Shown in pieces: positions 24,382-60,165 of a stretch of DNA of 64,000 bases (positions within the stretch are counted from its first letter, which is position 1; each line of letters opens with the position of its first letter). The notes beneath the pieces were generated by a model that saw only the letters and a list, made by a program, of their open reading frames with translations, had not been told where the DNA came from and searched no databases. Source of the stretch: Capsulimonadaceae bacterium. GTDB lineage: Bacteria > Armatimonadota > Armatimonadia > Armatimonadales > Capsulimonadaceae. Location of the stretch: assembly GCA_031292625.1 (NCBI GenBank), contig JARLGU010000019.1, positions 434,001 through 498,000 on the forward strand. The letters are read 5' to 3'. A program made the translations under genes and the position numbers.

Positions 24382-24930
24382 TTACCGCTTAGGCGCACTA
24401 TCGTTCCGATGTGTGAGAAGAGGGATGATAGGCATAGCGAGCGATTGATCAGTCATCGGCACTGTCCCACCGCGAAACACAGCCACGACAATACCATTGG
24501 GATCGATCACGTACGTAACCGGTAGTACGTGCGGCGCGCTGAAGCCATTTATGGTCGAGTCCGCGAGAAGGCCACATGGATACGTAAATGGCTCCATTGC
24601 CTTGCGTACACTTGAGCGCTCACGCCGCGAGTCGATGCTCATCGCTATGATATCCACGCCATCGTTATGGCGCCGCAGGTAAAACGCGTCGAGGACCGGC
24701 ATCTCCTGACGACACGGCAAGCACCAACTTGCCCAGAAGGTGACGACTACCACGCGGCCATTGTCTGCTGCCAGATCGAATTTCGCGCCATTCAGGTCCT
24801 TTACGACAAGCGCAGGCGCCCGTTGACCAACGTGTGGATCGACAGATGCGCCGCTCGCGACAGGAAGCGCTAGCGCGACGCTAGCCCCAATAACGGCTCT
24901 GATAATCGAGCGGCCCATCTGCCTGAGCAT
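24382..24930 (-). CDS. TlpA/ResA-type periplasmic thioredoxin
   Basis: The 182-residue exported protein has a signal peptide (about 1-28, I-G-A-S-V-A-L-A-L-P-V-A-S-G-A) and a thioredoxin fold whose redox site is W-C70-L-P-C73. The pattern V-G-Q-R-A-P-A-L at the start of the mature domain and L-P-V-T-Y-V-I-D-P-N-G near residue 138 (cis-proline strand) identify the TlpA/ResA/AhpC-TSA group. It reduces disulfides in the periplasm. Its start lies two bases after the stop of the upstream outer-membrane gene, so the two are translationally linked and the partner with its CACGCG cluster is a reasonable substrate. Confidence 0.9.
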   Translation of the reverse strand: MLRQMGRSIIRAVIGASVALALPVASGASVDPHVGQRAPALVVKDLNGAKFDLAADNGRVVVVTFWASWCLPCRQEMPVLDAFYLRRHNDGVDIIAMSIDSRRERSSVRKAMEPFTYPCGLLADSTINGFSAPHVLPVTYVIDPNGIVVAVFRGGTVPMTDQSLAMPIIPLLTHRNDSAPKR

Positions 24931-24932
24931 TT

Positions 24933-25916
24933 CTAGAACTCCCTGCCGACATTCACCTTGATCGCGTCGGCAGCGGTCAGCTGACCACCGCCGCTACCGT
25001 TATAGTTCTGCCAGACTGGGAACTCTACGTCGGCATAAATCCGGTAGTTGGCTGCATGGATCTCAACTCCGGGGGAAAGGATAAGTCGCGCGTAGCCGCT
25101 GTCTGCTGAGTCGGCGGCAGATAACGAGTCTCGCCAGCGCTGCGATCCCAACACCTGTACCAGTGGAGCGATTTTGGCGTTCCCGCTCGTCCAGGAATTG
25201 TAGTACAGCCCAATGGCCCCATCAAGCTCAGCGCCTGGTTTATAGCTGTAGGCGTGCAATATGGGCTGATCCAACTGGCCATTGGTAAACCATAAGAAAG
25301 CCCCGTTAGCATCAAGTTGCCCCGTGTGATATCCGCCCAGGAGAAGGTCCGTGCTCCCTGTCCCGATCTCCGTATCCGGATCGAAGTTCGGATAGGTGCT
25401 GTCGCCGGTCGGCAGCTTGGCGCCAAACGTCAGTCCGGTCGACATGTCGGGCGAGAAGCCAGAGTAGACGGCCTTCAGGCGAATGTCGCCAATGGCCCCG
25501 TGCGTGAAATCAACGATGTCTCCACTGTCGTCGGTCGTCCTGAAGTCGCGGTTCCAGTATGGCGCCTCAATCATTCCGCCCCATTTGCGGTTGAACATAT
25601 ACTGAATACCAGCGGTATAAAAGCTCGTGCGGATCTCCTTGTCGGAGTTGTTCGCTGCTGGAGCCTGCTTAGTCCCGCTCCAGTTCTTTGTCTGATCCAT
25701 GTAATCATATTCGAGATAAGCAAAACCTCCGGCGTGGTTAGCCATCAGTGCGCTCGTCCCGACATCGAATACGCCGCAGCCGCAAGCGCAACTCCACGCT
25801 GATCGCGTCGAGATCAACAAGATCGTCACCGCAATGACAGCCTCCAGGACACAGAAACCTTTCTTCTGATCGCCAAAAACATCAGATCGCATATAACTAT
25901 ATTTCTCCGTTGACAT
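24933..25916 (-). CDS. Outer-membrane beta-barrel protein with an N-terminal CACGCG cysteine motif
   Basis: The 327-residue protein has a hydrophobic leader (about 20-41), then C43-A-C-G-C-G-V-F-D-V-G and a long stretch of alternating beta strands with frequent aromatic residues (Y-L-E-Y-D-Y-M-D, G-I-Q-Y-M-F-N). It ends in a C-terminal phenylalanine (V-G-R-E-F), as outer-membrane barrels do. I read it as a porin/transporter-like barrel whose four cysteines may bind metal or be a target for the linked TlpA protein. The leader reads K-K-G-F-C-V-L-E-A-V-I-A, which resembles a pseudopilin cleavage site. An alternative start is the ATG at 25892 with GGAGAAA upstream. Confidence 0.7.
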   Translation of the reverse strand: MSTEKYSYMRSDVFGDQKKGFCVLEAVIAVTILLISTRSAWSCACGCGVFDVGTSALMANHAGGFAYLEYDYMDQTKNWSGTKQAPAANNSDKEIRTSFYTAGIQYMFNRKWGGMIEAPYWNRDFRTTDDSGDIVDFTHGAIGDIRLKAVYSGFSPDMSTGLTFGAKLPTGDSTYPNFDPDTEIGTGSTDLLLGGYHTGQLDANGAFLWFTNGQLDQPILHAYSYKPGAELDGAIGLYYNSWTSGNAKIAPLVQVLGSQRWRDSLSAADSADSGYARLILSPGVEIHAANYRIYADVEFPVWQNYNGSGGGQLTAADAIKVNVGREF

Positions 25917-26067
25917 ATTGTCGCCAGTTTACCTAAACGGGGATGCCGCTGTAAACGATGCGGCAACAGCTTGTGTAAATCGTTACGACCCGACTGGGAC
26001 GGCAATCACGCTTACCTGGAACACTTAGATGTTCAGATGTTACCGTGCGAGCGCACGAAGGGAGTTC

Positions 26068-26108
26068 ACGCGTGTCCAGTCGAACCAACCAGTCTAGGAC
26101 ACGCGTGC
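26068..26108. repeat. Perfect 11-bp inverted repeat after tonB
   Basis: CACGCGTGTCC (26068-26078) and GGACACGCGTG (26098-26108) are exact reverse complements with a 19-base loop, starting 18 bases beyond the tonB stop. No U-rich tail follows on the minus strand. It may help end the TonB operon transcript or be a protein-binding site. Confidence 0.5.
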
Positions 26109-26125
26109 TTGCCGATGCGCGACGC

Positions 26126-27013
26126 TCAATTCACCTCGAACTCGAACCGGAAGTAGGCCGTGCTTTCCACGGGCTTGCCTTCACTCAGCGCCGCCTTCCA
26201 CGTCCACTTCCTGAGCGCATCCAGCACCCGCCGATCGATCTCGGCGTTCCCCGACGACGTACGCAGCACGGGCGAGAAGCTACCGTCCGGCTCCACGACG
26301 ACCTTGACACGCACGAACGACTTGTACTGCTGCTGCTTTAGATCGTCCGGGATCTCGGGCTTCACCTGGTTGCCAGGTTGCGCGTCCCGAGTCGGCCCTG
26401 GGGGCGGCGCGGGCGCGGGCTCGGGAGCCGGTTTTGGTGTGGGCGGAGGTGGCGCGGGCGTGACCAGCTCAGGTTTGGGCGCGGGCGCAGGAGCGGGCGC
26501 GGGCGGCGGAGGCGCTGACTGCTCTCCGGCACCCTCGTGCTCGACCGGCGTACCTGGCGTCAGGTGCCCTCCGGGCGTCGCAGGCGGCTCCTCAGGCGTC
26601 GCCCGGCCTGTTGGCTTCGCGGCCATGACGTGAACGTGCGGCGCAGGCGGTGGGGGCGGCGTGTGCTCGACCTTGCGCTGAACGACCGGCTTTGGCGGCA
26701 GCATCTTCGGTTTGGGCCTGGGGAGCACCTTTGGTTTGAGCTTGACTGGGACGATTTTCTTGTCCTTGCGCAGAATCACCCGCTGAACCTCAATTGGGGC
26801 GGGAGGAGCAATAAGGTGGCCTTTCACAAAGCCGGACATCGTCCACCAGAGCAGCGCATTTACGAGCAGCGACACCGCGAGCCCAGTGCCCAGGCGAGGC
26901 GCAATTCGGTCGTCGCCGAGCAAGAACGTTTCCGAGCGCGTAACGCGTACGGTATCCGGTGGACGAATTGGCGGCCCGGCGGCGGGCGGGCTTTTGAGAT
27001 TGGCTGTTCCCAT
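26126..27013 (-). CDS. tonB: Energy transducer TonB
   Basis: The 295-residue protein has one membrane segment (about 43-62, L-A-V-S-L-L-V-N-A-L-L-W-W). A very long Pro/Ala/Lys-rich periplasmic spacer (about 75-215, with P-P-P-P-P-A-P and A-P-A-P-A-P runs) leads to a C-terminal TonB fold with V-V-V-E-P-D-G-S-F and V-L-D-A-L-R-K-W-T-W. It passes proton-motive energy from ExbB/ExbD to outer-membrane receptors. The ATG at 27013 has GGAGGA six bases upstream and lies one base after the exbD stop; a longer frame of 20 residues lacks such a site. The receptor, exbB and exbD precede it in the same operon. Confidence 0.92.
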   Translation of the reverse strand: MGTANLKSPPAAGPPIRPPDTVRVTRSETFLLGDDRIAPRLGTGLAVSLLVNALLWWTMSGFVKGHLIAPPAPIEVQRVILRKDKKIVPVKLKPKVLPRPKPKMLPPKPVVQRKVEHTPPPPPAPHVHVMAAKPTGRATPEEPPATPGGHLTPGTPVEHEGAGEQSAPPPPAPAPAPAPKPELVTPAPPPPTPKPAPEPAPAPPPGPTRDAQPGNQVKPEIPDDLKQQQYKSFVRVKVVVEPDGSFSPVLRTSSGNAEIDRRVLDALRKWTWKAALSEGKPVESTAYFRFEFEVN

Positions 27014-27014
27014 G

Positions 27015-27431
27015 TCAATCCTCCGCCGCGGTCGCGATCGCGAAATGGCTGATGCCTGCCTGGCGCGCGGCATCCATGCAATGGACGACCAGCCCGTGAG
27101 GCACGCTCAGGTCCGCGTTTATAACCACGGATTGGTCAGCAATATCGCCGCCAGGACCGACTTCGTCCGCTAGGTCTTGCGCCAGATCGGCGATATTCAC
27201 CAGCTTCTTGTTGACGTAGACCCGTTGCGCCTTGTCCACCGTGATCGTGAGGTCCTTGGTCTGCTGGCGAACCGCCGTGGCCGCAGTGGGTAGGTTTACC
27301 GGCAAGCCGTTGAGCTTGACGAGCGCGAGCGACGACAGCATGAAGAAGACGAGCAAGAAGAAGATCGTGTCGATCATCGGGATGATCTCAATCTTCGTCC
27401 GCTTAAGCTCGCGATGGCGCTTGAACTCCAT
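27015..27431 (-). CDS. exbD: Biopolymer transport protein ExbD
   Basis: The 138-residue protein starts M-E-F-K-R-H-R-E-L-K, then I-I-P-M-I-D-T-I-F-F-L-L-V-F-F-M, the single membrane helix with the essential aspartate (about residue 19). A periplasmic domain follows (about 45-138) with D-L-T-I-T-V and V-V-I-N-A-D. It forms the proton channel with ExbB. GGAGAGGAGA precedes the ATG at 27431. The gene overlaps exbB by 29 bases, a sign of coupled translation. Confidence 0.93.
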   Translation of the reverse strand: MEFKRHRELKRTKIEIIPMIDTIFFLLVFFMLSSLALVKLNGLPVNLPTAATAVRQQTKDLTITVDKAQRVYVNKKLVNIADLAQDLADEVGPGGDIADQSVVINADLSVPHGLVVHCMDAARQAGISHFAIATAAED

Positions 27432-28113
27432 GGTTCTTCTCCTCTCCAACGATCGGCGCCGCATGGTTGTCCAGCGTGATGCCGCCCCGATGGGCGTGTC
27501 CGCGCTCGTTCAGCACGTTGATGAGCTTGGTCGCCCCCTGTTCCGTCTCGGCCGTGATGTAGCGCAACCTCGCCGCGAAGTAGTTGTACGCCGCGAAGCA
27601 GACCACGGCGATGACCAGGCCCGTGGCCGTCGCGTAGAGCGCCTCGCCCACTCCCGCGAGCACCGCATCGTTGTTGCCGTGATGGATCGTCGAGGCAATA
27701 GCATTGAACGCGCCGATCATGCCGACGATCGTGCCAAGAAGACCTAGAAGAGGCGAAATGGTCGTCGTAGTGTCGAGAATGGGCAGGAACCTTTCGAGAC
27801 GAATGAAGAACTCCTGGCCCGTCTCCTCGACGCGGCGCTCGACCTCGCGCGACGGGCACTCGCGGTGCCGAAGCACCGTTCCCAAGCACGCCGCGAGCGG
27901 CCCGGACAGGGCCTCGCAGCGATCGATCGCCTCGTCGAAACGGCCGTCCCGGGTCTGCGCGATCACGATGCCGAGCAGTCCCATCGGCACCTGGCCGTAC
28001 TGGTTAAACGCAACCAGGCGTTCGACGATCACGACGATCGCCGCGATCGAGAGAAGCAGCAGCGGGTACATCACGAACCCGCCGCCGTGGATGAAGTGAA
28101 CGATGTTTGACAT
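27403..28113 (-). CDS. exbB: MotA/TolQ/ExbB proton channel protein
   Basis: The 236-residue protein has three membrane segments: Y-P-L-L-L-L-S-I-A-A-I-V-V-I near residue 15, I-S-P-L-L-G-L-L-G-T-I-V-G-M-I near 120, and A-T-G-L-V-I-A-V-V near 165. The spacing is that of ExbB. The motif L-G-T-V-L-R and the G-L-L-G-T-V/I-x-G-M are family signatures. Start ATG 28113 has GGAG eight bases upstream. It lies 99 bases after the receptor and overlaps exbD, which places it in the TonB operon. Confidence 0.93.
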   Translation of the reverse strand: MSNIVHFIHGGGFVMYPLLLLSIAAIVVIVERLVAFNQYGQVPMGLLGIVIAQTRDGRFDEAIDRCEALSGPLAACLGTVLRHRECPSREVERRVEETGQEFFIRLERFLPILDTTTTISPLLGLLGTIVGMIGAFNAIASTIHHGNNDAVLAGVGEALYATATGLVIAVVCFAAYNYFAARLRYITAETEQGATKLINVLNERGHAHRGGITLDNHAAPIVGEEKNHGVQAPSRA

Positions 28114-28212
28114 TGCCTTACTCCAGCGGCATTTTGCCGCAGCGATTTCTTCTATCGGGATTAAGCCGTTCGTCCCCGCCAGCAAGCTCGCGGGGACACG
28201 CGGTCTGGTTGC

Positions 28213-30798
28213 CTAGAAGTGCTCGGTCACGGAGACCAAGACCGTCCGGCCCTGCTGGAACCTGGTCCCGCTGTAGCCGGAGTTGTAGTTGATCACATCC
28301 CGCTCGTCGAAGATGTTCTCGACGTCCAGCCTCATCGATCCGAACCCGAGCATCTTCGGACTGCTCTCCAGCCTGGCGTTGTAGTACTTGCGCGGATGGC
28401 GGTTGAGGTCGGTGAGTTGGCTGGTGGTCTCCCCGCTGCCGTAGTAGCCGAGAAGGGCCGCCTGCGCTTGCGAGGCCCAGGTGTAGTTCGCGCCTGCAGA
28501 CAGCGTGTTGCGCTGGTCGTGGTCGTTCCAGATGGGGGCCGGGTTGCCGGACTGGTCTAGGCCGCCCGGCTTTGCGGTGCTGTAGGAGTACGCCGTGTAC
28601 GCGCCCCATCCCACGTTGTTGTGTGGGCTAAGCGTATAGGAGAGCTCCGCGCCGTGCACGCTGGCGTATTGGTACTGGAACGTGGTGTAGACGCCAATCT
28701 GGGTGTTCGGGATCAGAATGCCTGTATCGAACTCGTTGCGGATGTTCTTGTAGTAGTACGCGAGCTTCACGGTTTGGTCCGTCTTGAACTGCCGTTCGAT
28801 GCTGGCGTCGTACTGGTCGGTCTTCTGGGGCTTCAGGGCGTCCGAGCCGAGGGTCGCCGTCTGGGCCAGCGGGGGCTGCGAGACAAGGCGGTTATAGGAC
28901 AGCCGCAGCACCGTCGTCGGAACGAACGCATAGGCCATGTTAAGACGGGGCGAAAGCTCCGTCGAGTTGATGCCGGTCGTGCTGCCGTCGCTGACGTCGT
29001 AACGCTGCTGATAGCTGTCAACTCGGAGGCCGTAGTTGACCGCGAGCTTGGAGGTCATCTTCCAGGCGTCCTGGGCGTAGACCGCGCCGTAGTAGCCCTG
29101 CTTGTGAATGCTCAGAGTTGGCGCTACGGAGTCCGAGTGCGTCGTGACGACCGGGTTCCCGTAGACGTCGGTGGACGTGGAGCTTACCGACGAGTCGCTC
29201 GGCAGGAGCTGCGGGGCGGCCGAAGCGAGGGCGTCGAGGGCGAGCTGGCTGCCCGGCGTGAACTGAAACGACTCGTCGCCTACCTGCCGGTCCGCCACGA
29301 ATCCGGTCTTGTAGGTATGCCGGTTCTCCGACTGCGTGATGCTCCCTTGAAGCTGAGTCTGGGTGTAGCTCCGGTTGACGTTCGGGACGTACTCGATCGC
29401 GCTGTCCACGGGAAGAGCGTTGGGGTCGCTCGGATCGGTCGACAGGTCCGACGCCGCGCCGTTCTTCGCGGTGATTTTGATGCCCGACCTCGACATGCCG
29501 CCGGACAGCAGGCCGCTCGTCTTCGTGCCGAACTCGTGGCGCAGCGTGCCGAAAACGAACGTGTTGGAGTCGTCCTGCGTGATGTCCTGCCCGGCCGACT
29601 GCTGCGAGGCGAGCTTCTCGGCCTGCGCGCCCAGCGCGTTCGGGTCCGGGTTGACGACCGCGTTCGTCGCCACGGTCCCGTCCGCGTCGCGGAACCCGCC
29701 GTAACCGTAGCCCTGGCCGCTGGGTTCGAGGAAGCTCGGGAGCCCCGCGCGGTTCGCGATCTCGGTGGAGGCGGGCGACGTGTTGACGAACAGGTTCAGG
29801 GTGTTCTTCGCGTCGAGGACATAGTCGAAGTTGCCAAACACCGTAGCGGAATTGCCCGCGTTGTGGGCGGTCTGGTTGTCGGGCTGGGGCGGTTCGACCG
29901 AGTTGGCCGTCGTTCGGTCGCTCATGTCGAGGAAGTAGCGAAACCGCCGGGGAACCGGCCCGCTTTCGACGGTTTCCAGAGGGCTTCCAAGCTGGCCGCC
30001 CATCGTCAGTTCTCCGTAGGCGGTCGAGAAGGAGCCGACTTGTTCGGTCAGGTCCAGGAACGGCTTGACCGGCCCCGAACGAAGCGAACCGTTCAGGATA
30101 GCGGCCGTTTCGCTGCCATATTCCGGCGCGTATCCGCCCGTCTGTATATCGACGCTCTGGAGAATCTCGGGGCTGAAGAGCTGCCCGGCCCTTCCCTGAA
30201 GCGCGCCCGGGATCTCGACGCCGCCTACGTTGAACGTAGTGGACGCGTGCTCGCCGCGCGGATGGACGACGTTGACCGACGACTGGACGAACCCAGGGTT
30301 CGTGGTGACGAAGCTCGGCAGGCTTTGCGGGTTGCCGGCCGTCGACGGGTACTTGCTGAGGTCGGCGCTCGTGCGGGTCGTGGACTCGGTCGCGTTCGTC
30401 GCCTTGGTCTGGTTTACGGACCCCTTGATGACGATCACCTTCTCAGGCTTCTCAAGCTCGACGTCTACCTGGGTCGTAACATCCGCGAGGACGCTTTGGG
30501 TGACAGTCGCTGCCTTGTAGCCATTGGCCGAGATTGTCGCGGACCATGTGTGGTTTTCGAGCGGCGGGGTCGTCGCCTGGCCATCGCTCCCGGCCGTGAC
30601 GGGAGCGTCCGGGTGGACGTTCGTCACGTCGTGTAGGACGATCTTCGCCGAGGCGATCGGTTTCTCGGTGTCGATGTCCCGGACGGAGAAATGCAGGCGC
30701 CCGAAAACGTCGGACCATGCGGGCGACGAAACGAGGCATGCGCATAAGACGGTGACAACGCACCGCCATAGAGTTGACGTAGTACTGCGTGTATACAC
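28213..30798 (-). CDS. TonB-dependent outer-membrane receptor with N-terminal CarboxypepD-like domain
   Basis: The 861-residue protein has a signal peptide (about 1-29, V-L-C-A-C-L-V-S-S-P-A-W-S), a carboxypeptidase-regulatory-like beta-sandwich (about 32-115, G-R-L-H-F-S-V-R-D), a plug domain with F-N-V-G-G-V-E-I-P-G near residue 190 and Q-T-G-G-Y-A-P-E-Y-G-S, and a 22-strand-type barrel ending in phenylalanine (V-T-E-H-F). Substrate cannot be read from the sequence. The start is GTG with GGGAG upstream and sits in a 12-bp palindrome (30788-30799). It heads an operon with exbB, exbD and tonB. Confidence 0.9.
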   Translation of the reverse strand: MYTRSTTSTLWRCVVTVLCACLVSSPAWSDVFGRLHFSVRDIDTEKPIASAKIVLHDVTNVHPDAPVTAGSDGQATTPPLENHTWSATISANGYKAATVTQSVLADVTTQVDVELEKPEKVIVIKGSVNQTKATNATESTTRTSADLSKYPSTAGNPQSLPSFVTTNPGFVQSSVNVVHPRGEHASTTFNVGGVEIPGALQGRAGQLFSPEILQSVDIQTGGYAPEYGSETAAILNGSLRSGPVKPFLDLTEQVGSFSTAYGELTMGGQLGSPLETVESGPVPRRFRYFLDMSDRTTANSVEPPQPDNQTAHNAGNSATVFGNFDYVLDAKNTLNLFVNTSPASTEIANRAGLPSFLEPSGQGYGYGGFRDADGTVATNAVVNPDPNALGAQAEKLASQQSAGQDITQDDSNTFVFGTLRHEFGTKTSGLLSGGMSRSGIKITAKNGAASDLSTDPSDPNALPVDSAIEYVPNVNRSYTQTQLQGSITQSENRHTYKTGFVADRQVGDESFQFTPGSQLALDALASAAPQLLPSDSSVSSTSTDVYGNPVVTTHSDSVAPTLSIHKQGYYGAVYAQDAWKMTSKLAVNYGLRVDSYQQRYDVSDGSTTGINSTELSPRLNMAYAFVPTTVLRLSYNRLVSQPPLAQTATLGSDALKPQKTDQYDASIERQFKTDQTVKLAYYYKNIRNEFDTGILIPNTQIGVYTTFQYQYASVHGAELSYTLSPHNNVGWGAYTAYSYSTAKPGGLDQSGNPAPIWNDHDQRNTLSAGANYTWASQAQAALLGYYGSGETTSQLTDLNRHPRKYYNARLESSPKMLGFGSMRLDVENIFDERDVINYNSGYSGTRFQQGRTVLVSVTEHF

Positions 30799-30799
30799 G
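30788..30799. promoter_or_regulatory. Perfect 12-bp palindrome over the receptor start codon
   Basis: CGTGTATACACG is its own reverse complement and covers the GTG start at 30796-30798. Its core TGTATACA resembles GntR-family half-sites, so it might be an operator. It could also be chance. Confidence 0.3.
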
Positions 30800-31231
30800 A
30801 TGATTGTATCTCCCTTTGTTCGTCAAGACGGAGAGCGGGTTGGAGGTTCAAAGCAACCCGCTTCCGCCGCATTGCGTCGCAAGCGACGCCAACTAGACGA
30901 AAGGACCATGCGCGTGATACAATCACCACTGCCGACAGGGGTGATTCGTCACGCTTGTCCAGCGCGTGGGTGTTACCAGCACCCGCGCGCTTTTTTATCG
31001 TCCAGCCCCAGTGTCCACGCCGCTATTGCAAGCCAAGCGTTCTTCGCAAAGCAAGCAATGACACTGCGGGACACCTGCCACAGCGCAACTTACGGCGCGG
31101 TGGACATCATGAGCCGCTCCAACCCGGCACGTCCAGCGCCACGAAACACGGACGCCTAAGCACGGGCGAAACGAACGATTATTCAAGTTATCGAAGTGTG
31201 AAATTGACGTCTGCCGAGCGGCAGACAGGGA
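30799..31231. other. Gap between receptor and small exported protein; no CDS
   Basis: No gene is supported in this 433-base stretch. It holds the receptor's upstream region on the minus strand and the possible small RNA at 30929-30996 on the plus strand. The remainder (30997-31231) shows nothing I can interpret. Confidence 0.5.
30929..30996 (+). ncRNA. Candidate small RNA divergent from the TonB receptor
   Basis: An extended -10 element TGATACAAT (30915-30923) stands on the plus strand ahead of two hairpins. The first is AATCACC (30921-30927) with GGTGATT (30940-30946). The second is AGCGCGTGGGTG (30961-30972) with CACCCGCGCGCT (30980-30991), followed by six T residues. The second is a strong intrinsic terminator, yet no plus-strand gene lies upstream for it to end. 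A short untranslated transcript of roughly 65 bases would explain it. No -35 box is convincing, so this remains a candidate. Confidence 0.35.
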
Positions 31232-31609
31232 TTACGCAGCTGGGGGGCCGCGCGACATCGCGCCGGCGGACGGCAGCGAATGCAAGGTGACCGCACTCGT
31301 TGGGATGGTGATTGCGGCCGCTGGAAATTGCGGCAGGACAAACGCTGAAATAGCGCCTGAAACACATGCGGCATCGTACGAGCAAGCGGGACAGATATCG
31401 TTATCAACCGCGCTCGCAACTACGGATACTGGAGCGTACTGCGGGACTGGGGACCTCGAAGCAACGTCATGCAGCGACGGCGATCCCACGTCCGCGACCA
31501 AATCATGGTTGTGCGTAGAGATGCCTACGGTGTTCCAGAAGACGCAGCAAACGAGCGTTAACAGTGCGAACACGCGAGCGGTTCGATTGAATCGAGACCT
31601 AATAAACAC
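31232..31609 (-). CDS. Small exported protein with HNHD and CPAC motifs
   Basis: The 125-residue product starts at a GTG (31609) with the excellent ribosome site AAGGGAGGTGA seven bases upstream; a longer frame from a TTG is less likely. The first 30 residues are a signal peptide or anchor (A-L-L-T-L-V-C-C-V-F-W). The mature part has H-N-H-D and, later, C-P-A-C-S-Y-D-A-A-C. The combination of a His cluster and CPxC recalls small metal-related exported proteins (DUF2946-like), but I cannot assign a family. It sits upstream of the TonB receptor on the same strand, 433 bases away. Confidence 0.55.
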   Translation of the reverse strand: MFIRSRFNRTARVFALLTLVCCVFWNTVGISTHNHDLVADVGSPSLHDVASRSPVPQYAPVSVVASAVDNDICPACSYDAACVSGAISAFVLPQFPAAAITIPTSAVTLHSLPSAGAMSRGPPAA

Positions 31610-58272: not shown

Positions 58273-59022
58273 ATGAGTATCGTTATCCAAAAAGCAAGAA
58301 GATTATCGACAGAACAGGTGAGCCAGTACGAGAACGACGGCTACACGCTTTACAACGCGCCCGTCTTCGCGCCGGACGAATTCGCACGGCTCAAGGCGAT
58401 CTTCGAGGAGGATCTCGCCCGCTACGGCGACGAGGACCTGGACAGGATCCACTTCCGCGACAAACGGTTACTCCCGTTCTTGCTCAGCGATGCGGTGCTG
58501 GATCTTGTAGAACCTTTGGCCGGTCCCAATATCGGTCTCTGGAGCAGTCACTTCATCTCAAAAGCGCCGCGCACGGGAAAGGCGACGCCCTGGCACGAGG
58601 ATTCGGCGTACTGGAACGGCCGCATATCGACCATGGCGGGAATCTGCACCGTCTGGCTCGCGATCGATGAAGCGACGCCGGAAAACGGCAGCATGGCCGT
58701 GATCCCCGGAACGCATAGAAACGGCTTCTCGCAATACGCGCCCGTTGACACGGCAGAGAACATTTTTGGCAGCGAGATCAAGCCGGAATTGATCGATGAG
58801 TCAAAGGCTGTATATTTCTCGTTGAAACCCAACGAGTGCAGTCTGCACGAAGCGCGAATCATCCACGGCGCGAAAGCCAACACATCCGGCAAGCGCCGCG
58901 CAGGATACACGATGCGCTATTTCCCGACGTCAAGCAAGGTCTTTCCCGAGAAGAACCAGGGGCATCATCTCTGGCTTGCACGCGGCCGCGATCTCGCAGG
59001 AAACGTTTACATGAACGGTTGA
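58273..59022 (+). CDS. PhyH-type Fe(II)/2-oxoglutarate dioxygenase, module 3
   Basis: The 249-residue protein has iron ligands H108 and D110 (P-W-H-E-D-S-A-Y-W) and H198 (I-I-H-G-A-K), and a basic R-R-A-G-Y-T-M-R-Y stretch for 2-oxoglutarate. AAAGGAG stands seven bases before the ATG. It is the second dioxygenase of the region and not a close copy of the one at 43106, since the spacing and ligand context differ (H-E-D versus H-Q-D). It is convergent with the LacI gene. Confidence 0.87.
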   Translation: MSIVIQKARRLSTEQVSQYENDGYTLYNAPVFAPDEFARLKAIFEEDLARYGDEDLDRIHFRDKRLLPFLLSDAVLDLVEPLAGPNIGLWSSHFISKAPRTGKATPWHEDSAYWNGRISTMAGICTVWLAIDEATPENGSMAVIPGTHRNGFSQYAPVDTAENIFGSEIKPELIDESKAVYFSLKPNECSLHEARIIHGAKANTSGKRRAGYTMRYFPTSSKVFPEKNQGHHLWLARGRDLAGNVYMNG

Positions 59023-59073
59023 CGGAAGACGCCGCGCAAATCGGGCCTGTCCGGATGGCGTTCTTCGCGAACG

Positions 59074-60165
59074 TCACCCGTTGGCAGGCTCGATAGCGGC
59101 GGTTGAGGAGCGAACCATGAGTTCGCCGACATAAGCGATGTCGCGGCGGTGGATCCCGGCGGCGAAAGAGCCGTCCGTGGAGGCCTGGTCGTGCATGGAG
59201 TAGAGCTGAGCGATGGCGCTGGTCGCGATCTGCAGCATCGGCGGACGGATGGTCGTCAACGGCGGCGCAAGAGCCTCGGCTCCGCCTGGCGAATCGCCAA
59301 ACGTCACCACGGACACCTGCCTGGGCACCGAAAGTCCGCGCGCGAGGACCGCTTGCAGGAGAAATGTGGCGACGGACTCGTTAAAACAAACGAACGCCGT
59401 CACTTTTCCGGCATCGATCAGCGCATCCGCCATCTTGTGCACCTGCTCGCGGAACGATAGGTTGCGAAATGTGTCGTAGGGCGCCGGGACGCAGAAATCG
59501 GCAGGCGTGCCGTGATCGACCCACGATGATTGGAGGCCCTGCCAGCGTTGACGCGTGACGCGAGCGCGCGGCTTGGCGCTTGGACCGACAAACGCGACGT
59601 GACGATGACCGAGGCTCCACAGATGATCCCCAAGGCTTCGTCCAGCCGCAAAGTTGTCGAGGTGTACGGTCACCATTTCGCGCGGGGATTCGTCGGCCTC
59701 GCCGAGCATCACGGTCGGGATCGTCGCCGCGGCCGCCGAGCGGGGGAGAAGCGTATCGCCGAGTACGATGAGGCCCATCAGAGCGAGCATATCGAGCTTG
59801 GGCAAGTCCGCCTCGGTGAGCATCCGGAAGCCGTAGTCGTAATCATCGCCGGCGGCGGGCGTTTGCTGAGCCGCATGACGCGTCAACGCCTTCTGGAGCG
59901 CGTTGAGTGCAATTGCGCCCGTTGCGTCCATATCGGGCGACCAGATGCCAATAAACTGCTCGACGCGTTGACGCCTCAGACGACGGCTCCCGCGAGGCCG
60001 TCCTGAACGAACTGGCGTGTAGTTCAGCTGTTCCGCAACGCGGAGAACTCTCTCGCGCGTATCCTTACTGACGAACGTCCCGTTATCTCTTCCGCTGAGC
60101 ACGGTTGACACCACGCTCGGTGAGACTCCCGTCTGATCGGCAATGTCCTTGAGGGTGACAGGCAT
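59074..60165 (-). CDS. LacI-family transcriptional regulator
   Basis: The 363-residue protein opens with the LacI HTH (M-P-V-T-L-K-D-I-A-D-Q-T-G-V-S-P-S-V-V-S) and hinge, then a basic R-P-R-G-S-R-R-L-R-R stretch and a sugar-sensor fold with L-W-S-L-G-H-R-H-V-A-F-V-G and V-S-V-V-T-F-G-D-S. It diverges from the propeller gene at 60360. The gap between contains an AAGCGCTT palindrome that fits a LacI-type half-site pair. Confidence 0.92.
   Translation of the reverse strand: MPVTLKDIADQTGVSPSVVSTVLSGRDNGTFVSKDTRERVLRVAEQLNYTPVRSGRPRGSRRLRRQRVEQFIGIWSPDMDATGAIALNALQKALTRHAAQQTPAAGDDYDYGFRMLTEADLPKLDMLALMGLIVLGDTLLPRSAAAATIPTVMLGEADESPREMVTVHLDNFAAGRSLGDHLWSLGHRHVAFVGPSAKPRARVTRQRWQGLQSSWVDHGTPADFCVPAPYDTFRNLSFREQVHKMADALIDAGKVTAFVCFNESVATFLLQAVLARGLSVPRQVSVVTFGDSPGGAEALAPPLTTIRPPMLQIATSAIAQLYSMHDQASTDGSFAAGIHRRDIAYVGELMVRSSTAAIEPANG

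Follow-up and report, generated by a model that had tools for sequence, protein, structure and literature searches.

The stretch of DNA analysed here, 64,000 nucleotides (nt) long and referred to as the window, is a section of the 5.77-Mb draft genome of a Capsulimonadaceae bacterium (Armatimonadota). It carries genes for a TonB-dependent uptake system, an outer-membrane barrel and a thioredoxin, preceded by a small open reading frame (ORF) which appears to be a regulatory arrest leader. In the direction of transcription, the order is small ORF, a 433-nt gap, receptor, ExbB, ExbD, TonB, a 209-nt gap, barrel and TlpA-like protein. All coordinates are positions in the window, and every feature of the island lies on the minus strand. 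The original prediction had read the region as one island for handling a soft metal such as copper, composed of a small protein with H-N-H-D and C-P-A-C motifs, a full TonB system, a barrel with CACGCG, and a TlpA thioredoxin linked to it by a 2-base gap. All of these items are present, the TonB parts are confirmed by Pfam, and the gap between the barrel and TlpA genes is exactly 2 bases. What is shown for the leader, the TonB system, the barrel and TlpA is the set of genes, the build of the leader, sequence conservation, place in the operon, copper- and zinc-type neighbourhoods in relatives and a predicted fold. We divide the locus into two neighbouring metal-handling modules, module 1 (31609-26126) and module 2 (25916-24382), a division that shares the rather favourable estimate given below to the explanation as a whole. 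Module 1 comprises:

31232-31609, minus strand: leader ORF, 125 aa, GTG start, with GGAGGTGA just 5' of the start
31513-31502, minus strand: HNHD motif, leader residues 33-36, read from the sequence
31393-31382, minus strand: CPAC motif, leader residues 73-76, read from the sequence
31252-31241, minus strand: RGPP motif, leader residues 120-123, two residues ahead of the stop (C-terminus S-RGPP-AA)
31241-31375, minus strand: C-rich, G-poor stretch at the end of the leader ORF, a possible Rho-utilisation region by its base-composition profile
31209-31226, minus strand: perfect hairpin GTCTGCC-GCTC-GGCAGAC directly after the leader stop, whose role can only be presumed
30799-31231, minus strand: leader-receptor intergenic region, 433 nt, strongly structured
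28213-30798, minus strand: TonB-dependent receptor, 861 aa, Pfam PF00593 (TonB_dep_Rec) 3.6e-27
27403-28113, minus strand: ExbB, Pfam PF01618 (MotA_ExbB) 6.4e-25; ATG at 28113 is the likely start, TTG at 28185 the listed one
27015-27431, minus strand: ExbD, Pfam PF02472 7.7e-28; ATG at 27431 is the likely start
26126-27013, minus strand: TonB, proline-rich, Pfam PF03544 (TonB_C) 8.4e-9; ATG at 27013 is the likely start

The TonB system is complete, with all four parts above the Pfam cut-off. The small protein that heads it does not resemble a metal carrier. Its N-terminus contains a hydrophobic stretch, as read from the sequence, and its RGPP motif lies 43 residues past CxxC and two residues from the stop, which is why we assign it, judging by sequence, to the CruR/CutF class of regulatory leaders. 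The part in metal uptake that had been proposed for it is not borne out by this anatomy. The original prediction had overlooked the C-terminal RGPP as well as the 433-nt gap that separates leader and receptor.

CruR of Bordetella pertussis is a copper-responsive upstream ORF of the DUF2946 family, in which CXXC is followed by 45 residues, RAPP, three residues and the stop (PMC9426467). CXXC senses copper and RAPP stalls the ribosome; upon release, Rho ends transcription before the receptor gene (PMC9426467). The rule for the class is CXXC and then R[AG]PP at 45 residues, plus or minus two (PMC9426467), with which the window leader (CPAC-RGPP, 43 residues) agrees. The two also share a short leader that looks exported, first position in the operon, a TonB-dependent receptor downstream, an excess of C over G near the leader end (the C>G bubble), and a long gap, 433 nt in the window and 162 nt in cruR-crtA(bfrG)-bp2921 (PMC9426467). 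In contrast to CruR, the window leader has RGPP in place of RAPP and gives no Pfam DUF2946 (PF11162) match in a search up to E 1. A second parallel is CutF of Rhodobacter capsulatus. CutF-like proteins were filtered by a length of <150 aa, a proline pair in the last 15 residues, a putative signal sequence and a same-strand gene <1000 nt downstream (PMC9973294); the window leader has 125 aa, RGPP two residues from the stop, and the receptor 433 nt downstream. CutF acts by delaying export and by a hairpin that covers the ribosome site of the next gene (PMC9973294), whereas a long structured gap lies behind the window leader. Additionally, an EMBO J 2025 survey found RGPP to give the most stable arrest and reported RAPP/RGPP leaders of TonB-related genes throughout Gram-negative bacteria (PMC12992588), and the window protein resembles these: it too is small and of secretory type, has RGPP close to its C-terminal end and stands upstream of TonB-related genes.

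The RNA of the 433-nt region is unusually stable, with a fold z of -5.44 and none of 100 shuffles equally stable, and the C-G value of the final 120 nt of the leader is +0.125. A riboswitch search of the window with Rfam gave nothing credible, its two matches both falling far under the gathering score.

Searches of the phylum covered 291 genomes (G, L, f and g codes are genome, locus, family and genus labels). The pattern of CxxC, 36-52 residues and RxPP near the end was sought among 2,243 ORFs of 70-190 aa in 743,559 bases, made up of the window and 54 loci, some of which overlap. It occurs in 26 ORFs where shuffling predicts 0.35; one of the 26 is a duplicate locus (L056 is a duplicate of L091). 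Although spacings of 36-52 were allowed, 25 of the 26 fall at 43-45 and one at 48. A hidden Markov model built with the window leader left out finds it at E 2.4e-17, the next best among 352 window ORFs scoring 0.029. In the alignment of 25 leaders only C73, C76, R120, P122 and P123 are invariant and H33 is conserved at >=90%; the rest is scarcely conserved, with a mean column identity of 26%. If the small protein served in the periplasm as a functional metal carrier or chaperone, with RGPP incidental, its exported appearance and its His and Cys motifs would be accounted for, but not the invariance of R-x-P-P together with CxxC, at near-fixed spacing, in 25 otherwise diverged members. Moreover, the published survey names RGPP as an arrest sequence and as the tetrapeptide excluded more than any other in many bacterial phyla (PMC12992588). 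We consider a carrier very improbable.

Pfam DUF2946 is matched by 14 of the 25 leaders (E up to 1; best 3.6e-6). The C>G bubble is also a property of the family: the final 120 nt of 62 leaders have a mean C-G of +0.177 versus -0.026 in 161 operon genes, and values of at least 0.10 are reached by 92% of the former and 4% of the latter. The excess of C is seen at third codon positions as well, though smaller there (0.151 versus 0.053, p 2e-4).

A profile of the 25 leaders matches 61 of the 291 genomes at E up to 0.01. Among its 77 leader matches, 64 operons were examined, namely those with E up to 3.4e-4 minus one partial match (G168); 12 weaker ones were omitted. They divide into 29 TonB systems, 23 of the porin-ZnuABC type, 10 others and 2 that are cut off. 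The porin-class operons begin with a porin gene, after which most have genes for a ZnuA-like binding protein, an ABC ATPase and an ABC-3 permease; in one such locus Pfam gives ZnuA 4.2e-54, ABC_tran 8.8e-26 and ABC-3 1.2e-48. The 10 others are nine operons with a DUF1559 gene within 5.5 kb and one RND efflux set. In those nine (L151, L159, L171, L173, L174, L177-L179 and L181; 9/64) the DUF1559 prepilin-like gene is the recognised downstream gene, lying <400 nt from the leader in eight, which could reflect chance or regulation, as DUF1559 genes are abundant here. In L176 (G054:C1), a leader of this family heads genes resembling those of an outer-membrane efflux protein, an adaptor and an RND pump (ACR_tran by Pfam).

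Profiles of the TonB-class and Znu-class leaders cross-match all scored leaders (22/22 and 28/28). A leader tree tried for separating the two as clades gave no resolution, with 6 changes versus 16.6 after shuffling and with long branches. HxH was ruled out as a universal leader ligand: it is present in 12/28 TonB-class and 16/23 Znu-class leaders, and only one His is conserved at 90%.

A search with the receptor finds homologues (E up to 1e-20) in 45 of the 291 genomes. From these, 37 loci were fetched and 34 have intact upstream DNA; L095, L045 and L106 break off ahead of the operon start and are not among the 34. A leader heads the receptor operon in 19 of the 34 loci, comprising 19/21 outside family f15 and 0/13 within it. 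The gene order is leader-receptor-ExbB-ExbD-TonB in the window's family and leader-ExbB-ExbD-TonB-receptor in family f8. Two of the 19 leaders, L076 and L077 of one genus (g3), have C-x-x-H in place of C-x-x-C and keep RAPP, a natural change of the presumed metal ligand. The window's own genome has a second same-family leader (L143, G000:C21:57000-68000; leader 58823-59164), which heads a 670-aa receptor, ExbB, ExbD and TonB.

As to the metal of the TonB unit, zinc seems more likely than copper, though it is not proven. It is favoured because the same leader family heads porin-ZnuABC operons in 23/64 loci, because L081 has a leader-TonB and a leader-ZnuABC operon in a row, and because no ZnuA was found in the window's genome. 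On one strand, L081 holds a Fur-family gene (PF01475 3.1e-23), leader, receptor, TonB, second leader, porin, ZnuA, ABC ATPase and ABC-3 permease. It is through the operons of relatives, ZnuABC importers with a Fur-family regulator, that a metal class is suggested for module 1. Among 13 aligned ZnuA-like proteins H58, H137 and H201 are invariant, and in HMMER alignments H201 pairs with a His of 3gi1 and 3cx3 and with a Glu of the iron-binding YfeA. A His-His-His ligand set is the mark of zinc in cluster A-I binding proteins. ZIP genes adjoin a second type of leader-TonB operon (L157) and two receptors (L083), the latter locus also having a metal-sensitive repressor gene (PF02583). ZnuA is present in 4/24 genomes with TonB-class leaders versus 164/267 others (Fisher p 4e-5, uncorrected for shared ancestry). 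In the accessible literature on zinc with DUF2946 or arrest peptides, the sole relevant study concerns Caulobacter Zur, where a DUF2946 gene is listed immediately before the RND gene czrC (PMC4176598); zinc, ZnuA and ABC transporters have no occurrence in the main text of the RAPP/RGPP survey (PMC12992588).

Copper throughout is the most serious competitor, and we regard it as possible but rather unlikely. Here the leader would be a CruR-like copper sensor, the receptor would import copper like CrtA, and the barrel and TlpA would continue the route to cytochrome oxidase. CruR and CrtA are the studied paradigm, nascent-peptide metal sensing having been shown for copper in Proteobacteria with CruR (PMC9426467) and CutF (PMC9973294), and ExbBD and TonB are part of some crtA operons (PMC12914433); the DUF2946 relation of the leader family, the barrel neighbours described below and the COX1 gene of the window's genome agree with it. 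What speaks for zinc in the TonB unit, in contrast, is that one leader family, with cross-matching class profiles, heads zinc-type ZnuABC operons too, in one relative directly beside the receptor operon and a Fur-family gene. Copper is also disfavoured by the two relatives with C-x-x-H and by the different, cysteine-rich C-x-x-C-H-M leaders of the barrel in two Armatimonadota. Finally, PepSY_TM, found in >75% of crtA loci (PMC12914433), was not seen in the island. Compared with the CruR operon, the island also has the full ExbB-ExbD-TonB set.

The receptor itself carries the plug motif HPRGEH, of which H179, R181, E183 and H184 are invariant in 19 aligned receptors. Its substrate was sought among solved structures: the single-sequence search found none, and the profile from the 19-receptor alignment found only the plugs of PqqU and YncD. 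These plugs could mean that the receptor takes an organic ligand, e.g., PQQ or a nickel, cobalt or iron metallophore, with the leader sensing such a metal or another stress. A HupE/UreJ gene near one relative's operon fits this, as His-only CutF-like leaders precede HupE/UreJ genes (PMC9973294); cysteine-motif leaders, however, mostly precede copper genes in that survey (PMC9973294) and zinc-type genes here, and we judge an organic ligand improbable.

Module 2 follows TonB after the 209-nt gap:

24933-25916, minus strand: outer-membrane barrel, from an AlphaFold2 model and fold comparison
25790-25773, minus strand: CACGCG, barrel residues 43-48, at the likely mature N-terminus
24382-24930, minus strand: TlpA/ResA-like thioredoxin, Pfam AhpC-TSA 3e-18; NCBIfam ResA 4.1e-24, below its cut-off
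24723-24712, minus strand: CLPC, residues 70-73 of the TlpA-like protein, read from the sequence

Among the genomes seen, modules 1 and 2 adjoin only in the window. The relative G021, a single-contig genome, keeps the receptor operon with the barrel absent, and at barrel loci outside the window no match to its TonB proteins was found. The modules are thus separable, and the idea of one single island is not supported.

The barrel has no Pfam or NCBIfam match up to E 1. Its model (pLDDT 72, with low confidence for the residues N-terminal to the barrel) has about 12 strands and comes nearest to the COG4313 channel 4rl8 (Z 22.0, rmsd 3.1, 246 residues), followed by FapF (Z 21.4 over 236 residues). 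By its predicted fold, rather than by sequence profile, it would be a COG4313/Phenol_MetA channel, one that may work like the members of that family without being filed among them. The barrel fold is common to all three, whereas identity to 4rl8 and FapF is 9-12%, and the window barrel differs in its CACGCG N-terminus and the copper-gene neighbourhood of its relatives. In 11 aligned barrels from several phyla CACGC never varies, and it stands, by eye, at the expected signal-peptide cleavage position. The signal region of the window barrel (25916-25773) reads KKG-FCVLE, which we take to be a type IV prepilin-like cleavage motif; aligned relatives lack it.

Barrel homologues in the 291 genomes number three strong, the window's own included, and four weak. 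In a species-genome collection there are 14 barrel loci, including metagenome-assembled genomes (MAGs) of Oligoflexia, Caulobacterales and Gammaproteobacteria at 47-53% identity; one Armatimonadetes MAG locus (L011) is the same as L094 of a same-family genome, and the two were counted as one. In the proteobacterial order of G296, 2/150 genomes have the barrel, both already known. This patchy distribution suggests spread by lateral transfer; plasmids were tried as the vehicle and rejected, with no match in a plasmid collection. Outside the window, 12 of 13 barrel loci, several of the 12 closely related, have a short ORF 65-145 nt 5' of the barrel that starts hydrophobic and has a proline pair close to its end; L023 and L024, which lack DNA upstream of the barrel, were left out. 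Nine of these 12 leaders look DUF2946-like by eye (two of the nine were scanned with Pfam, both scoring below cut-off), and those of two Armatimonadota loci are of the cysteine-rich C-x-x-C-H-M kind. SCO1 stands near the barrel in L014, L020 and L015 and PCuAC in L018; these 4/13 loci are a lower bound, as the Pfam scan covered 10 chosen barrel neighbours. TlpA follows the barrel in 3/13 loci and in the window. The window's genome has COX1; no SCO1 was found in it. A Cys/His-rich exported protein before the barrel's leader in L012 (9101-9517) and L020 (9081-9515) is presumably Csp1-like, a copper storage protein; the one in L020 matches DUF326 below cut-off. Because its neighbours are SCO1, PCuAC and DUF2946-like leaders, the barrel-TlpA module likely handles copper. 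The earlier claim of metal handling thus stands in general, and that of copper for this pair, while for the TonB unit copper is disfavoured by the leaders of zinc-type ZnuABC operons.

The explanation that we prefer, and hold to be moderately probable, combines a CruR/CutF-type leader on a TonB operon, serving zinc rather than copper, with a copper-handling channel and its TlpA. We infer the stalling, the action of Rho, the identity of the metals, the N-terminal topology and the reduction by TlpA. In module 1, the short exported leader would head the operon of a dedicated TonB uptake system (receptor, ExbB, ExbD and TonB). When the metal is scarce, the ribosome would stall at RGPP of the nascent leader and cover its C-rich end, so that transcription continues into the receptor gene. 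Metal bound at the His/CxxC site of the nascent chain would end the stall, and Rho could then stop transcription within the long intergenic region. In module 2, a 12-stranded outer-membrane channel of the COG4313 fold would face the periplasm with its mature N-terminal CACGCG, whose cysteines TlpA may keep reduced, and would handle copper.

Several points weigh against this explanation. Thirteen f15 receptor operons (L078, L083, L089, L092, L097-L099, L101-L103, L105, L107 and L109) have no leader at all, with receptor and ExbB/ExbD conserved; the window leader fails to match DUF2946, and the window barrel lacks a dedicated leader. The C-rich stretch follows partly from the amino-acid make-up of the leaders, and no shared operator (no enriched dyad) was found upstream of them, a result that decides nothing. 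The nearest solved receptors, PqqU and YncD, are not metal receptors, and the scarcity of ZnuA in TonB-leader genomes was counted with no correction for shared ancestry. Lastly, the studied model, CruR, answers to copper, and the TonB unit of the window adjoins a copper-type module.

The leader class is already known; what is novel is the zinc link of an arrest-leader family and the unnamed barrel. More tentatively, at slightly under an even chance, we propose that zinc-sensing arrest leaders of Armatimonadota switch either ZnuABC or a self-contained TonB system, interchangeable between lineages, and that in the window the latter is joined to an unnamed copper channel (CACGCG barrel and TlpA) which elsewhere has its own leader. 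If true, a zinc-sensing arrest leader would be, to our knowledge, the first nascent-chain zinc switch, and would add a second metal and a second phylum, with a single leader family set before two unrelated kinds of transporter. The arrest-peptide switch would then be a general plug-in with a retunable metal site. The barrel, for its part, offers a specific candidate for a copper channel of the outer membrane that needs no TonB energy.

Two further features lie in the 209-nt gap. The inverted repeat, which lacks a T-run, may end the first transcription unit, and the site behind it is promoter-like by consensus match only:

26068-26106, minus strand: long inverted repeat ACGCGTGTCC...GGACACGCGT between TonB and the barrel, read from the sequence
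25926-25955, minus strand: promoter-like site before the barrel gene, TTTACA-18-TAAACT

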